Source: a virus. From it: a stretch of DNA of 48,246 nt. The stretch lies in the IMG/VR virus record IMGVR_UViG_3300050120_000022, positions 1-48,246 of that record; one strand, written 5' to 3'. Position 1 is the stretch's first letter; each line of letters starts with the position of its first letter. Positions 11,796-15,707 of the stretch are shown in pieces. Under the pieces are notes generated by a model. That model had not been told where the DNA came from and did no database searches. It saw only the letters and a program-made list of their open reading frames with translations. The position numbers and the translations under genes were made by a program.

Positions 11796-12353
11796 ATGGC
11801 TACAAAGAAACCGAACCGCAAAGAACTGCTTGCAACAATTACCACTGCTACCAACTCCGCACAGGGTTATGCGCTTGTTGATCCTTCCCACATCAAAGAG
11901 CTTGTTGCTGATGGTCACGTTGAAGTGAACACGGCGATTACTTCCGAAGATGGCAAGGTTGCGGCGCGTGCTACTGGCGTGGCGTTGCCGGTCGAGGCTG
12001 CAAAGGCGTCATTTGCCATTGAAAGCGGCATCGTGCCAACTCCGCAAGCGCGGGGCGGCAAGAAAGAAGAGGTTTACCCGTTCGGGCAGTTGGAAGTTGG
12101 ACAGTCTTTCTTTGTGCCCGCAACTGAAAAGGCTCCTGAACCTGCAAAGACGTTTGCCAGCACGGTATCAAGTGCAACGCGGCGCTTTGCTGTCAAGAGC
12201 ACAACTGAAACGAAGACTAACAAGAAAGGTACTGTTGTGCCGGTGTTGGTTGTTACGCGGCGCTTTACCATTCGCGCTGTAACTGCTGGGCAAAAGTACG
12301 AGAATGGTTACACTGAAGCCGCAACCGGAGCGCGGGTTTTTCGTCTCGCGTAA
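11796..12353 (+). CDS. hypothetical Ala/Thr/Lys-rich protein, 185 aa
   Basis: Begins MATKKPNRKELLATITTATN, followed by a section resembling a small folded domain (AQGYALVDPSHIKELVADGHVEVN) and a C-terminal half with repeated basic strands (TRRFAVKSTTETKTNKKGTV, TRRFTIRAV). GC-rich, regular codon use suggests high expression. It has its own promoter. No family recognised; a DNA-associated or virion-internal protein is conceivable. Confidence 0.55.
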   Translation: MATKKPNRKELLATITTATNSAQGYALVDPSHIKELVADGHVEVNTAITSEDGKVAARATGVALPVEAAKASFAIESGIVPTPQARGGKKEEVYPFGQLEVGQSFFVPATEKAPEPAKTFASTVSSATRRFAVKSTTETKTNKKGTVVPVLVVTRRFTIRAVTAGQKYENGYTEAATGARVFRLA

Positions 12354-12398
12354 CGTTTTATCCATTTTCTAAAAATGGATTGGTGGAGGCGTAACAAG

Positions 12399-12474
12399 TT
12401 TGCAGCGGTAAAATCGGCCCCTGGTATAATTACCGGATTTAGGGCGTTCCCTTGAATGGGTTTACCGCTGCAAA
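12399..12474. promoter_or_regulatory. promoter bracketed by a perfect 14-bp inverted repeat
   Basis: TTTGCAGCGGTAAA (12399-12412) and its exact reverse complement TTTACCGCTGCAAA (12461-12474) flank a promoter: -35 TTGCAG (12400-12405), 18 nt, extended -10 TGGTATAAT (TATAAT at 12424-12429). The left arm overlaps the -35; the right arm lies in the transcribed leader. This is an operator-like layout for a looping or cooperative repressor. Confidence 0.6.
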
Positions 12475-12496
12475 GCTGTTTTTGAAAGGGCAAACA

Positions 12497-12745
12497 ATGC
12501 AAGGTAAAGCCGCTTCAATCAAAATACCCAAAGACGTATTGAAGAAAGACACAGGATTTAACGAAGTCTTCAATAACAACCCAACCAAAACAGGGCGTAG
12601 AGCTAACCGCCGTATGATTCGCTATCGTGAAGTAAAAGAAAGAATGGTACCAAGCGGCGATTATGCAATTGCGCCGGATGAATCGCTAAGACGCCTGGAT
12701 AAGTTGAAAGCAAGAATGGAAAAGCAGTTGAAGGGCAAGAAATAG
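12497..12745 (+). CDS. small very basic protein, 82 aa
   Basis: The ATG at 12497 follows AAAGGG at 7 nt; an upstream in-frame ATG at 12452 would include the operator arm in coding sequence. The central part is KTGRRANRRMIRYREVKERMVPSGDYAIAPDESL, and it ends in a Lys-rich helix. Nucleic-acid binding is likely from charge only. It is immediately upstream of the tmRNA and probably on the same transcript. Confidence 0.55.
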   Translation: MQGKAASIKIPKDVLKKDTGFNEVFNNNPTKTGRRANRRMIRYREVKERMVPSGDYAIAPDESLRRLDKLKARMEKQLKGKK

Positions 12746-12756
12746 ACATACGCGCA

Positions 12757-12832
12757 TAACAACAAACCATCGTTGTAATCGAAGTGAAGTTAGATCATTA
12801 AGACGCGAGTTCGATTCTCGCCACGTCCACCA
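12757..12832 (+). ncRNA. ssrA: permuted tmRNA, acceptor (3') piece
   Basis: This piece carries the 3' end of tmRNA but lies upstream of the coding piece. Reading in order: a small ACAAC/GTTGT hairpin, the P2 3' strand (GTTAG 12789-12793, TCATTA 12795-12800), a perfect T-arm (GCGAG-TTCGATT-CTCGC, 12805-12821), the acceptor strand CACGTCC (12822-12828), discriminator A and encoded CCA ending at 12832. The acceptor strand pairs along all 7 positions with GGGCGTG at 12859-12865, including a G3:U wobble, the alanine identity element of tmRNA and tRNA-Ala. The exact 5' end is uncertain. Confidence 0.88.
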
Positions 12833-12858
12833 ATCCAATTGCAGGCATAGTACACAAT
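12833..12858 (+). other. intervening segment of permuted tmRNA precursor
   Basis: 26 nt between the encoded CCA end and the GGGCGTG 5' end of mature tmRNA. In known permuted ssrA genes this loop is removed by tRNA-processing nucleases, leaving a two-piece RNA. Confidence 0.75.
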
Positions 12859-13075
12859 GGGCGTGTCATGGTTTCGATTGATGAGACTAACGTAACGGGA
12901 TGCGCCGGGCGCTGTGGCTCACGATACGAGACACGGAAAAAATGACTGCCTCAAAACAGGTAGCACGCAAAGCAAAAGTAATTGCATTCCCTGCAAAGAC
13001 TGTTGCTATGCAAATTGCAGCCTAACGGCTAGCGGAGTTTTTGCCGGTTTTTCTTAGCAACAGAATAAAACCGGC
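12859..13075 (+). ncRNA. ssrA: permuted tmRNA, coding (5') piece with tag frame
   Basis: Starts with acceptor strand GGGCGTG, then the D-region motif TCATGGTTTCGATTG typical of tmRNA 5' ends, then the P2 5' strand (TGATGA 12879-12884, CTAAC 12887-12891), which pairs with the acceptor piece. A stem-loop at 12912-12936 (8 of 9 pairs) is in the PK1 position. The tag frame ends at TAA 13023-13025 and reads ...GCMQIAA-type hydrophobic-Ala-Ala. The best resume codon is GCA at 12984, because the five bases before it (TAATT) fit the tmRNA pattern U-A-R-U-Y; this gives tag AFPAKTVAMQIAA. Longer tags starting at GCA 12972 or 12963 are possible. A 9-bp hairpin (GCCGGTTTT/AAAACCGGC, 13043-13075) follows. 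Confidence 0.87.
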
Positions 13076-13099
13076 ACCTATCTAACGAGGTTCCTACCA

Positions 13100-13765
13100 A
13101 TGGATGAAGTAATCAAATTCCTTAAAATGTGGTTTCTAATAGTTGTTTGTTTCCTATTCACATGGGGCTTAATTTTTATCAATCATGTTGATAAACAAGT
13201 TTCAGACTTGAGCCAATCCATTGAACAAACAACAGAACAAACCAACACTGTACTTAGCAACATGAATGCTATTTTACTTTCAATAAACCGGCCCTGTGGA
13301 ACCGGCCAACCTTGCGGCACGCTGGCAGACGTGGCAAAGACGCTGGGCACGATCCGGGGCACGGCTGGGCAGCTAGAGATAGCCGCGCACCATGAGGATG
13401 CCCGGCTTGACGCCTTGGACGCACAGGAAACCGCCTTGTACGGCGATACCCACAAGCTGCTTGCGCGTGGCTCTACAGCCCTGGAGACGGCCAACGCGAC
13501 CATAGCCGGGCTTCAGCCGGTAGAGGCGCAATTAAACCTGGAAGCCAAACAATTGAATGTTGCCACGGCCAATTTGAATGTGCTGTTGACGAATCCAGAC
13601 ATACCGGCTGCAATTGGTAGCACAAATTCAGCGTTGGGGCATATCAACGCCACTGTTGCAGACACACAACAAGCCGTACATGCATGGCTACATCCAACGT
13701 GGCCCCGCAAGTTATGGAATGGCATACAGGAGTTTTCTGTTGATATTGGGCGCGTTTTGTTTTGA
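13100..13765 (+). CDS. membrane-anchored coiled-coil protein, 221 aa
   Basis: One N-terminal membrane helix (residues about 10-28, WFLIVVCFLFTWGLIFI) with a short cytoplasmic head. A long helical domain follows with heptads (VSDLSQSIEQTTEQTNTVLSNMNAI, DALDAQETALYGDTHKLLARG). CGTGQPCGT at about 65-73 may form a disulfide. Topology fits an N-in, periplasm-out protein such as an inner-membrane spanin or envelope sensor, but it is separated from the endolysin by other genes. GAGG lies before the ATG. Confidence 0.6.
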   Translation: MDEVIKFLKMWFLIVVCFLFTWGLIFINHVDKQVSDLSQSIEQTTEQTNTVLSNMNAILLSINRPCGTGQPCGTLADVAKTLGTIRGTAGQLEIAAHHEDARLDALDAQETALYGDTHKLLARGSTALETANATIAGLQPVEAQLNLEAKQLNVATANLNVLLTNPDIPAAIGSTNSALGHINATVADTQQAVHAWLHPTWPRKLWNGIQEFSVDIGRVLF

Positions 13766-13790
13766 CAATTGTTATTGAATTTGATAATAT
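13762..13790 (+). promoter_or_regulatory. near-consensus promoter
   Basis: -35 TTGACA (13762-13767), 17-nt spacer, -10 TAATAT (13785-13790); AGGAG precedes the ATG at 13812. The -35 overlaps the stop of the previous gene. Confidence 0.8.
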
Positions 13791-13811
13791 TTCTTCATAG
13801 GAGTACAAACA

Positions 13812-14378
13812 ATGGATGCAAAACACATGCAACAATTGCTGATTGATTTAAGAGCGTGCAATGAAGCGCTTTTATGGGCGAAAGGAAAAACTCTCGCGGA
13901 AATTTGGGAACAATGCGACCGTGCCGATTGGCTATTGTGGCTTGGCGGTCGTATGTGCGGTAAAGATGGTTGGCCGAATAGAAAGACGATTGTTTCAATT
14001 GCTTGTGATTGTGCGGAATTGGCATTACCTTACGTTAAAGGAGGGGATGATAGGCCGCGATTGGCAATTGAAATAACTCGCGCCTGGATTCGCGGCGAAG
14101 CAACGATAGAGCAAGTAAAAAACACGCGTGCTGCTGATGCTGCTGATGCTGCTGCTGCTTATGCTTATGCTGCTTATGCTGCTGCTTATGCTGCTGCTTA
14201 TGCTGCTTATGCTGCTGATGCTTATGCTGCTTATGCTGCTGCTTATGCTGCTTATGCTGCTGATGCTGCTTATGCTGCTACTGCTGCTTATGCTGCTGAT
14301 GCTCGAAAGGAAATGAAAGCAAAATGTTTAGCAATTGTTAAAGCTAAACTCATTCCAGAATGTCTAAAAATTAAGTAA
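13812..14378 (+). CDS. Imm-5-like protein with Ala/Tyr/Asp repeat domain, 188 aa
   Basis: Residues 1-100 follow the pattern of Imm-5-type putative immunity proteins and related phage proteins: CNEALLWAKGKTLAEIWEQC, DRADWLLWLGGRM, CDCAELALPYV, DDRPRLAIEITRAWIRGEA. Residues 105-165 are almost purely Ala, Tyr and Asp in AAY/AAD repeats, predicted as a long helix. The last 24 residues return to normal composition (KEMKAKCLAIVKAKLIPECLK). It has its own strong promoter and a strong terminator, as expected for an independently expressed moron. Real function unknown. Confidence 0.65.
   Translation: MDAKHMQQLLIDLRACNEALLWAKGKTLAEIWEQCDRADWLLWLGGRMCGKDGWPNRKTIVSIACDCAELALPYVKGGDDRPRLAIEITRAWIRGEATIEQVKNTRAADAADAAAAYAYAAYAAAYAAAYAAYAADAYAAYAAAYAAYAADAAYAATAAYAADARKEMKAKCLAIVKAKLIPECLKIK
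14128..14303 (+). repeat. low-complexity GCT/TAT/GAT codon repeat inside the Imm-5-like gene
   Basis: About 175 bp composed almost only of GCT with interspersed TAT and GAT codons, in irregular 9-15 bp units such as GCTGCTTATGCT. All repeats are multiples of three, so slippage changes length without breaking the frame. Confidence 0.9.
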
Positions 14379-14506
14379 GTTTTGCCGTCCCGCAAGGGCA
14401 CAGACGTTGCAACCCGTACATGAGGCACCATAGCGATAAGTCCACAATAAACGGGTATCGGCAATTAAAAAGCGTCAGTCTGAAAAGATTGACGCTTTTT
14501 AATTGC
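14379..14506 (+). ncRNA. possible small structured RNA ending in a terminator
   Basis: The 82 nt after the Imm-5-like stop contain a CCCGCAAGGG mini-hairpin and a closing 6-bp pairing ACCCGT ... ACGGGT, followed at once by the 17-bp terminator stem at 14461-14506. It could be only a long 3' UTR. Confidence 0.3.
14461..14506. terminator. strong bidirectional terminator
   Basis: Perfect 17-bp stem GCAATTAAAAAGCGTCA / TGACGCTTTTTAATTGC with a 12-nt loop; A-tract and T-tract flank the GC core on both strands. Confidence 0.9.
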
Positions 14507-14527
14507 ATAAAATTGCAAACTTTCTTG

Positions 14528-14557
14528 TTGACATTTGGTAACGTTTCTTGGTAACGT
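14528..14557 (+). promoter_or_regulatory. promoter with TTGGTAACGT direct repeats (candidate operator)
   Basis: -35 TTGACA (14528-14533); -10 probably TAACGT (14552-14557). TTGGTAACGT occurs at 14535-14544 and 14548-14557, 13 bp apart, filling the spacer and the -10. A third copy lies at 7935-7944 inside the regulator-like gene. Confidence 0.55.
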
Positions 14558-14578
14558 ATCTCTACGGAGGAAACAACC

Positions 14579-14746
14579 ATGAAACATGCACTTGTTGTAC
14601 TCGCATTTGTAGCATTTTACTTTGGCGCAATGATCCAATGGCCTTGCATTTGGGTATCGCCTGTTTCTGTAATTGGCTGTGTAACTCTAATGGCATTTAT
14701 TTCATATCACATAACACACGCGCCGGAAAAGCAAGATGATGACTAA
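14579..14746 (+). CDS. small two-helix membrane protein, 55 aa
   Basis: ATG 14579 after ACGGAGG. Two membrane helices (LVVLAFVAFYFGAMI and VSVIGCVTLMAFISYHI) and an acidic tail EKQDDD. It is the first gene of a three-gene unit with the superinfection immunity gene, so it may assist exclusion. Confidence 0.65.
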   Translation: MKHALVVLAFVAFYFGAMIQWPCIWVSPVSVIGCVTLMAFISYHITHAPEKQDDD

Positions 14747-14927
14747 ACAACAATTGAAAAGTTTATTCCATACAGCGCATTACCATAAATATAGCGAATT
14801 GGTAGTTGCACACGCGATACTTTGGATTCAATCGCAAGAATGCGAATCAATTGAAGGTAAACGCATTTTGTTATCGGCGGCTCACAAGCTGCTAGATCAA
14901 ATGATTACAGGGGCACACAATGAATAG
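14736..14927 (+). CDS. hypothetical helical protein, 63 aa
   Basis: Starts ATGATG, overlapping the previous stop, and overlaps the next gene's start. All-helical composition (KQQLKSLFHTAHYHKYSELVVAHAILWIQS). Tight packing implies co-translation in the exclusion unit. No family recognised. Confidence 0.6.
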   Translation: MMTKQQLKSLFHTAHYHKYSELVVAHAILWIQSQECESIEGKRILLSAAHKLLDQMITGAHNE

Positions 14928-15168
14928 CATATTTGGGACTACAGCCGGATTACTGATTTTTGTTGTCATTCCAATTTTGTTGTACTGTCTCCCCGCTATC
15001 GCAGCGAAACGGCGCAACCATAACAATTACGGCTCAATTTTGATATTGAATCTATTTTTAGGTTGGACGTTAATTGGTTGGATCGCTGCATTGATTTGGG
15101 CTGCTAGCGATAATGTTGCATATTGCGAACGTGAATTAAAGTTTGACAGAGTAAGAAAAAGGTATTAG
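14920..15168 (+). CDS. imm: superinfection immunity membrane protein (T4 Imm-like)
   Basis: 82 aa with two membrane helices. The pattern LYCLPAIAAKRRNHNNYGSI followed by LNLFLGWTLIGWIAALIWA is the hallmark of the superinfection immunity family: T4 Imm blocks DNA entry of a second phage at the inner membrane. The tail CERELKFDRVRKRY is cytoplasmic and basic. Ends just before a terminator. Confidence 0.88.
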   Translation: MNSIFGTTAGLLIFVVIPILLYCLPAIAAKRRNHNNYGSILILNLFLGWTLIGWIAALIWAASDNVAYCERELKFDRVRKRY

Positions 15169-15202
15169 ACTGCAACTGTTTCATACCTAGTAGTATGGCC
15201 TC

Positions 15203-15235
15203 AGCCCCTAGAAAATATCTAGGGGCTTTTTTTTT
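15203..15235 (+). terminator. intrinsic terminator
   Basis: 10-bp stem AGCCCCTAGA / TCTAGGGGCT (15203-15212 / 15218-15227), 5-nt loop, then at least 8 T. The T-tract runs directly into the TTGACT -35 box of the lysozyme promoter. Confidence 0.9.
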
Positions 15236-15261
15236 GACTCCTGGCGGCGCTGTGCTACACT
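15234..15261 (+). promoter_or_regulatory. endolysin promoter, leaderless type
   Basis: -35 TTGACT (15234-15239), 16 nt, extended -10 TGCTACACT (TACACT 15256-15261), then 8 nt to the ATG at 15270. Confidence 0.65.
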
Positions 15262-15269
15262 TGCGCCAA

Positions 15270-15707
15270 ATGTCCAACTTTGTATACAGCAAAAGCGGAG
15301 TAACGCTTACAGAGGGCTTTGAAGCTCTGCGATTGACTGCCTACAAAGACATTCGCGGGCGCTGGACTATCGGCTATGGACATACCGGCCCTGAAGTGCA
15401 TGAAGGGCTTGTATGGACGGAAACGCAAGCAGAAAACGCGCTAGCAAATGATATTTTGTGGGCATCTCGCGTTGTTAATCGGCTTGTAGTATATCCGATT
15501 ACACAAAATGAATTTGATGCGTTAGTTGATTTCACTTACAACGTTGGCGCTGGAGATTTTGCAAGCTCAACAATGTTGAAAGACTTGAATAAAGGCGATA
15601 TTAAGAATGCAGCTTTACAGTTTGATTTATGGGATCATGCGGGCGGGCAAGTTGTAGCAGGTTTGTTGCGTAGACGTGAAACTGAATTAGCGGAGTTTTC
15701 ATCTTGA
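15270..15707 (+). CDS. endolysin, T4-lysozyme family (GH24)
   Basis: 145 aa from the ATG at 15270, which fits the promoter; upstream in-frame codons would read through the terminator. The catalytic triad of T4 lysozyme is present: E15 in LTEGFE, D27 in YKDIRG and T33 in RWTIGYGH. NEFDALVDFTYNVG and GLLRRRETEL are also standard for the family. It cleaves the MurNAc-GlcNAc bond of peptidoglycan. No signal peptide or SAR helix, so it needs a holin, probably encoded just downstream. Confidence 0.93.
   Translation: MSNFVYSKSGVTLTEGFEALRLTAYKDIRGRWTIGYGHTGPEVHEGLVWTETQAENALANDILWASRVVNRLVVYPITQNEFDALVDFTYNVGAGDFASSTMLKDLNKGDIKNAALQFDLWDHAGGQVVAGLLRRRETELAEFSS

Follow-up and report, generated by a model that had tools for sequence, protein, structure and literature searches.

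A phage-borne circularly permuted tmRNA gene with a predicted long, basic tag

The stretch of DNA analysed here (the window) is an IMG/VR virus record of 48,246 nucleotides, which carries genes for terminase, portal, capsid, contractile tail sheath, DNA polymerase and primase. Between a DUF7303 gene (11796-12353) and a phage lysozyme gene (15195-15707) lies an accessory island of 2.8 kb (12354-15194, + strand), which holds a tmRNA gene along with ORF 12497-12745, ORF 13100-13765 and the Imm5-like ORF 13812-14378. An earlier note on this DNA had read the locus as a circularly permuted, two-piece tmRNA, and the elements it had named (acceptor, T-arm, CCA, D-region, P2 and a stem in the PK1 position) were all found in their places. 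The gene has the permuted order, the rarer of the known forms, as the CCA end at 12832 precedes the GGGCGTG start at 12859, and all the features that follow are on the + strand. The core of the acceptor piece, which is the 3′ part of the mature tmRNA and is encoded first, spans 12789-12832 according to sequence, the Rfam model RF04321 and covariation; its 5′ end may be further upstream, the RF04321 match beginning at 12771. It comprises the 3′ strands of P2 (GTTAG, 12789-12793; ATCATTAA, 12794-12801), a T-stem (12805-12809/12817-12821) with its T-loop (12810-12816), and the acceptor 3′ strand CACGTCC (12822-12828), followed by A 12829 and CCA (12830-12832). By anchored comparison, an internal transcribed spacer of 26 nt (12833-12858) separates this piece from the coding piece and would be excised by tRNA-processing enzymes; among the viral relatives the spacer ranges from 3 to 146 nt.

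The coding piece, of about 217 nt (12859-13075), is delimited by RF04321, sequence and covariation. It opens with the acceptor 5′ strand GGGCGTG (12859-12865), which pairs with CACGTCC and forms a G3:U, and continues with the D-region GGTTTCGA (12870-12877) and the 5′ strands of P2 (12878-12885, and CTAAC at 12887-12891). The stem in the PK1 position, CTGTGGCTC/GAGACACGG (12912-12920/12928-12936, with a 7-nt loop), has 8 of 9 base pairs; its pair 6 is a G.A mismatch that is conserved in the relatives. Comparison with Escherichia coli and with the relatives defines an 11-nt spacer, AAAAAAUGACU (12937-12947), between PK1 and the predicted resume codon, and comparative evidence places the tag frame, ASKQVARKAKVIAFPAKTVAMQIAA (25 aa), at 12948-13025, including the stop codon TAA at 13023-13025. 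The piece ends in a 3′ hairpin of nine perfect pairs (13043-13075) with the loop GCAACAGAA, a motif also present in the alpha_tmRNA alignments and in viral relatives. The GCAACAG loop could form 7 bp with CTGTTGC of the tag, a pairing that was considered and rejected, as it is not kept in relatives. Elsewhere in the island, a 15-nt stretch (12373-12387) is 93% complementary to 12826-12840, which takes in the acceptor end and the beginning of the spacer (TCCACCAATCC).

The Rfam two-piece models were among the checks suggested by the earlier note. The merged model RF04321 (tmRNA_permuted), of a family curated in Rfam (PMC11915505), matched positions 12771-13025 at 67.5 bits, above its cut-off of 47 (E 5.8e-11). 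RF01850 (Beta_tmRNA) gave a partial match of 55.6 bits, under its curated cut-off of 84, and RF01849 (alpha_tmRNA) gave no window match above its cut-off of 50 in scans of which one left out lower-scoring overlapping matches of the same clan; this last cut-off is passed by the viral relatives L029, L095, L132 and L104 (50.6-63.5 bits). The alanine identity elements (G3:U, discriminator A and CCA) are all there, as are a resume codon near PK1 and a hydrophobic C-terminus, IAA, which RF04321 membership calls for at the level of sequence. ARAGORN, the other program that the note had named, did not call a tmRNA for the window gene. It calls a permuted tmRNA in most viral relatives and misses, besides the window gene, those of L034 and of phage Tunturi 5, so ARAGORN-based phage surveys overlook some members. 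Could a small ORF (12900-13025, 41 aa) and a tRNA-like inverted repeat simply have come together by chance? An ATG-started ORF does span the region; nevertheless, its ATG is not kept in relatives, a combined test for T-arm, acceptor and D-motif that found one match in the window found none in 200 Markov-resampled 48-kb windows, and the RF04321 score and the covariation described below also stand against this reading, which we regard as refuted, with a negligible residual probability. By every sequence test applied, the window gene is a member of the permuted tmRNA group.

Relatives were collected by pattern scans, which found the permuted pattern in 92 stretches of IMG/VR contigs, so permuted tmRNAs are not rare in phages; by tag reading, the long-tag kind discussed below is a distinct minority of them. 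We aligned 20 distinct members without gaps over 20 pairs from the P2 helix, the T-stem and the acceptor stem. The anchors were the T-loop, the CCA and the D-region, so the counts of pairs do not result from fitting the sequences to the pairing. In this alignment 97.5% of the cells are paired, and 14 of the 20 pairs changed on both sides, which bears out the compensatory changes in related phages that the earlier note had wished to see. The covariation score was 0.522, against 0.180 ± 0.019 after shuffling (0 of 500 shuffles as high), and slid partners used as a control gave 0.05-0.09. The third acceptor pair is G:U in 20/20 members, and the nine-pair stem in the PK1 position has compensatory changes in most relatives (for example, L034, L143 and L104). 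As judged from these patterns of substitution, the structure of the window tmRNA family is under selection.

The earlier note had described the tag as unusual, with an open frame ending GCAGCC-TAA. Both points stand; its start at GCA 12984 does not, as comparison with relatives points to GCC 12948, an upstream codon of that frame. The 13-residue tag proposed then, AFPAKTVAMQIAA, constitutes the last 13 residues of the 25-residue frame, whose full product ASKQVARKAKVIAFPAKTVAMQIAA has a net charge of +5. We place the start at GCC 12948 because of the 11-nt spacing, the GCN codons of relatives, the short tags, a codon-position bias and the ARAGORN readings. In E. coli 11 nt (AAAAAAUAGUC) lie between PK1 and the resume codon (PMC2481249). 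Most relatives have a GCN codon 9-11 nt past PK1, and those with the same PK1 type carry tags of either 10 or 25-28 aa, both from the position of GCC 12948; the 10-aa tags AEPFALPMAA, AAAFALPVAA and ADSFELPVAA start exactly there. A point against is position −4 relative to the resume codon, which corresponds to the frame-setting A86 of E. coli: the window and L148 have G there, and nearly all relatives have A. In a nucleotide alignment of the relatives the four codons 12972-12983 (AKVI) have 118, 56 and 196 mismatches at codon positions 1, 2 and 3, respectively, and the PK1 region has no comparable third-position bias. This nucleotide-aligned test replaced an amino-acid-motif-anchored version that was circular at position 2. 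A start at GCA 12984 has in its favor that GCA is a common resume codon, that it is preceded by GTAATT, and that 13 residues is a normal length for a bacterial tag, typical of the alphaproteobacterial tags we read. Nevertheless, this codon would be 47 nt away from the PK1 stem rather than about 11 nt, the AKVI codons just upstream of it vary across relatives as coding sequence does, the short tags begin at the GCC position and not at this one, and ARAGORN independently reads homologous long tags in most relatives. A 13-residue tag is thus very unlikely, and translation in the window should resume at GCC 12948.

We propose a long-tag family whose frames begin with a GCN resume codon in the position set by PK1, run for 22 or more residues and contain a [KN]-[VL]-[LIF]-x-[FI] core, all of which is true of ASKQVARKAKVIAFPAKTVAMQIAA in the window. 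About 20 distinct viral permuted tmRNAs with long basic tags were found, and five distinct relatives share their PK1 types but have short tags. The long tags have 22-34 aa and a net charge of +1 to +6, and are built around K-V-[LI]-x-F-P. From sequence comparison, these genes apparently form a coherent and undescribed family: in a full-text search of the available literature no paper was found on such AFPA-type tmRNA tags, and we found no description of this class of conserved, long and basic tags, of long and short tags sharing a scaffold, or of such long tags in a cultured acidobacterial phage. A tag-only pattern scan added one true member, L132. Its other places, L128-L131 and L133-L136, were rejected as ordinary coding sequence; those that were scanned have no tmRNA match, and L131, L134 and L135 are near-identical in sequence to L128/L133. 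The same core motif was also seen in a different gene form, a viral one-piece tmRNA (L098, 11145-11500) whose frame ends in GKVIAFPAPMAQAA.

The typical RF04321 members share with the window gene the acceptor piece encoded first, the T-arm, the G3:U, the CCA, the D-region, the inter-piece P2, the stem in the PK1 position and an alanine-ended tag. However, most alphaproteobacterial members score 115-166 bits, against 67.5 for the window, and typical tags of the family are short and of the ANDN type, while that of the window is basic and has 25 aa. Alphaproteobacterial tmRNAs of RF01849 likewise have the GCAACAGAA hairpin loop at the end of the coding piece and a CACCGTTA-like PK1 region, but their D-region is GGATCGAC where the window has GGTTTCGA, and their tag class is also different. 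From 90 tmRNA loci of sampled alphaproteobacterial genomes 77 tags were readable, most of them of the ANDN type, and K-V-[LIV]-[AST]-F occurred in none of the 77. We read these tags because the D-region GGTTTCGA, required by our pattern scan of 84,980 genomes, is rare in alphaproteobacteria, for which that scan was not a fair test. It returned 23 places, of which only a tmRNA of a Chlamydiia genome (Chlamydiota, L120, tag ANSKSSKVVAFPAMGELAAAA) was verified. A restrictive pattern with three required parts had no match in 289 alphaproteobacterial genomes, which, given the pattern, is weak evidence. One-piece chromosomal tmRNAs of Chlamydiota and cyanobacteria differ from the viral genes in form and location, yet have tags with a hydrophobic-hydrophobic-x-F core (for example, ANENSKVISFAAAQEADSVSYAAAA, ANSKSSKVVAFPAMGELAAAA and ANNIVPFARKQALVAA), an echo of the viral motif. 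As Chlamydiota and a cyanobacterium have this similar core, the motif is not strictly viral. Separately, tmRNA frames of a few alphaproteobacterial genomes (L254, L278, L280 and L288) read as long, very basic tags with putative starts, ending for example in ATAKRNARGRKPINGRLARRSRKVARLAA.

The distribution of the gene among related phages is patchy. Two genomes, G358 and G359, have whole-genome synteny with the window at roughly 35-67% protein identity; the distance from the DUF7303 gene to the lysozyme gene is 634 nt in the former and 208 nt in the latter, and neither has an Rfam tmRNA match. As the gene is absent from this junction in both, we regard the tmRNA as an accessory gene beside the lysis genes, and its absence from the closest syntenic relatives indicates that it is dispensable for that lineage. 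Several long-tag loci do have structural genes in common with the window; in L143 identity is 61% for portal, 48% for terminase, 50% for capsid and 51% for sheath. Among 80 portal relatives the coding piece is present in four loci of three distinct lineages (in one, L343, near the contig end), and an RF04321 match in 1 of 23 longer records. With four such loci among 80 and most longer records lacking the gene, vertical fixation of the tmRNA in the phage lineage was rejected. A major-capsid search of viral contigs found nothing. As for the rest of the island, a 20-nt inverted repeat (12393-12412/12461-12480, 90% complementary) upstream of ORF 12497-12745 and of the tmRNA flanks a TATAAT-like sequence and is a possible regulatory element, the Imm5-like ORF has C-terminal Ala/Tyr repeats of the GCTGCTTATGCT type (14108-14332), and a near-perfect 21-nt palindrome with a 4-nt loop lies at 14461-14506.

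Capture of ssrA through prophage excision is a known route (discussed in PMC9004378), and the locus might be a decaying or carried-over fragment of a host ssrA, left for example when a prophage with its attachment site in ssrA was excised imprecisely. Both the patchy distribution and the score of the window copy (67.5 bits, against 73-101 for most relatives) agree with such an origin. Against it, every element and pair is intact, with covariation, the 3′ hairpin has no mismatch, and tags of this class turn up in many different viral contigs and in 0/77 of the alphaproteobacterial tags read, so that a host fragment appears highly improbable. We instead favor, with a probability of about 0.8, the joint reading that the locus is an intact, accessory, phage-encoded permuted ssrA which takes part in ribosome rescue with host SmpB and whose tag starts at GCC 12948.

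How such a gene would act can be outlined from established trans-translation biology, from which we infer the steps of processing, alanylation, SmpB delivery and tagging. A single transcript would be cut at about 12832/12858 by host RNase P and 3′-processing enzymes, and the acceptor and coding pieces would remain paired after cleavage. Host alanyl-tRNA synthetase would recognize the G3:U and charge the tmRNA, which host SmpB and EF-Tu would bring to stalled ribosomes on broken mRNA, either at a late stage of infection or when host RNases attack. Translation would then resume at GCC 12948, append ASKQVARKAKVIAFPAKTVAMQIAA and be released at TAA 13023. With its hydrophobic IAA end the tagged product would probably still reach a protease of the host. 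The additional basic module, K-V-[LI]-x-F-P, is a part of the tag that is conserved separately, and it may, for instance, lead the product along a Lon-like or adaptor-assisted route. The earlier note had seen no smpB in the window, and indeed SmpB was found encoded neither there nor in a further 16 records, of which most bear a tmRNA. In our analysis, the tmRNA most likely cooperates with host SmpB in ribosome rescue during infection, and the most economical benefit would be rescue on mRNAs that break late in infection or under host defence. The functional proposal of the note, that the phage may use the RNA to rescue ribosomes or to redirect tagged proteins, is a reasonable hypothesis. Alternatively, the phage tmRNA could mainly be a decoy that sequesters SmpB or alanyl-tRNA synthetase and blocks host trans-translation, the tag being irrelevant. 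There is a reported precedent in the tmRNA of phage DS6A, which consists of the tRNA-like domain only and inhibited the endogenous tmRNA when expressed in E. coli (PMC11915505). The window, by contrast, has a complete tag frame with codon-level conservation across relatives, and PK1 and the spacing to the resume codon are retained, which makes a decoy unlikely. It is conceivable, if rather doubtful, that K-V-[LI]-x-F-P is a viral tag signal with a function of its own, by which phages would reprogramme the outcome of host trans-translation and not merely boost it; tagged nascent proteins may, for example, be directed to Lon or to an adaptor of the phage's choice, or be made inert.

Phage tmRNAs are usually listed without asking which tag gets added. 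One RNA scaffold bearing tags of either 10 or 25-28 residues in viral relatives is a natural experiment: do phages use trans-translation solely for freeing ribosomes, or do they also determine by it what becomes of the tagged protein? According to the note, the phage tmRNAs known so far are mainly one-piece genes, but two-piece forms made up 53 of 133 unique phage tmRNA structures reported in 2022, in a study that included the isolate Melnitz (PMC9004378). Melnitz and other aquatic phages carry, like the window, a permuted ssrA, proposed to aid translation during infection (PMC9004378). In Melnitz, a 141-kb marine myophage, the gene was reported under a glutamine riboswitch (PMC9004378), whereas that of the window belongs to an island on the lysis side of a 48-kb contig, in which an Rfam scan found no riboswitch. 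Finally, we compared our sequences with those of named phages. A tblastn search with a long tag had no match, and blastn with the tmRNA matched short tRNA-like pieces only, yet led to Tunturi 5 and XacN1. Tunturi 5 has a permuted tmRNA (L137 1400-1696, − strand; PP885688 157899-158195; 86.4 bits) at a site that is unannotated in PP885688, with no tmRNA mentioned in the corresponding paper (PMC11924767). Like the window gene, it has a PK1 of the GTGTGGCC/GGACACA type and a long basic tag, AKNSPVVRGTAKVLSFARKFVPAVSSTRAFAMAA; unlike the window, Tunturi 5 is a jumbo phage, and its tag has 34 aa. Tunturi 5 is cultured, on the Acidobacteriota host Tunturiibacter. This phage and its host are thus a cultured pair with a related tag, in which the role of the tag is testable. 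The cultured Xanthomonas phage XacN1 also carries an unannotated permuted tmRNA (L138 732-1031, + strand; AP018399 37231-37530; 123.2 bits), and its tag, ANANTFDYALAA, is of the standard type.
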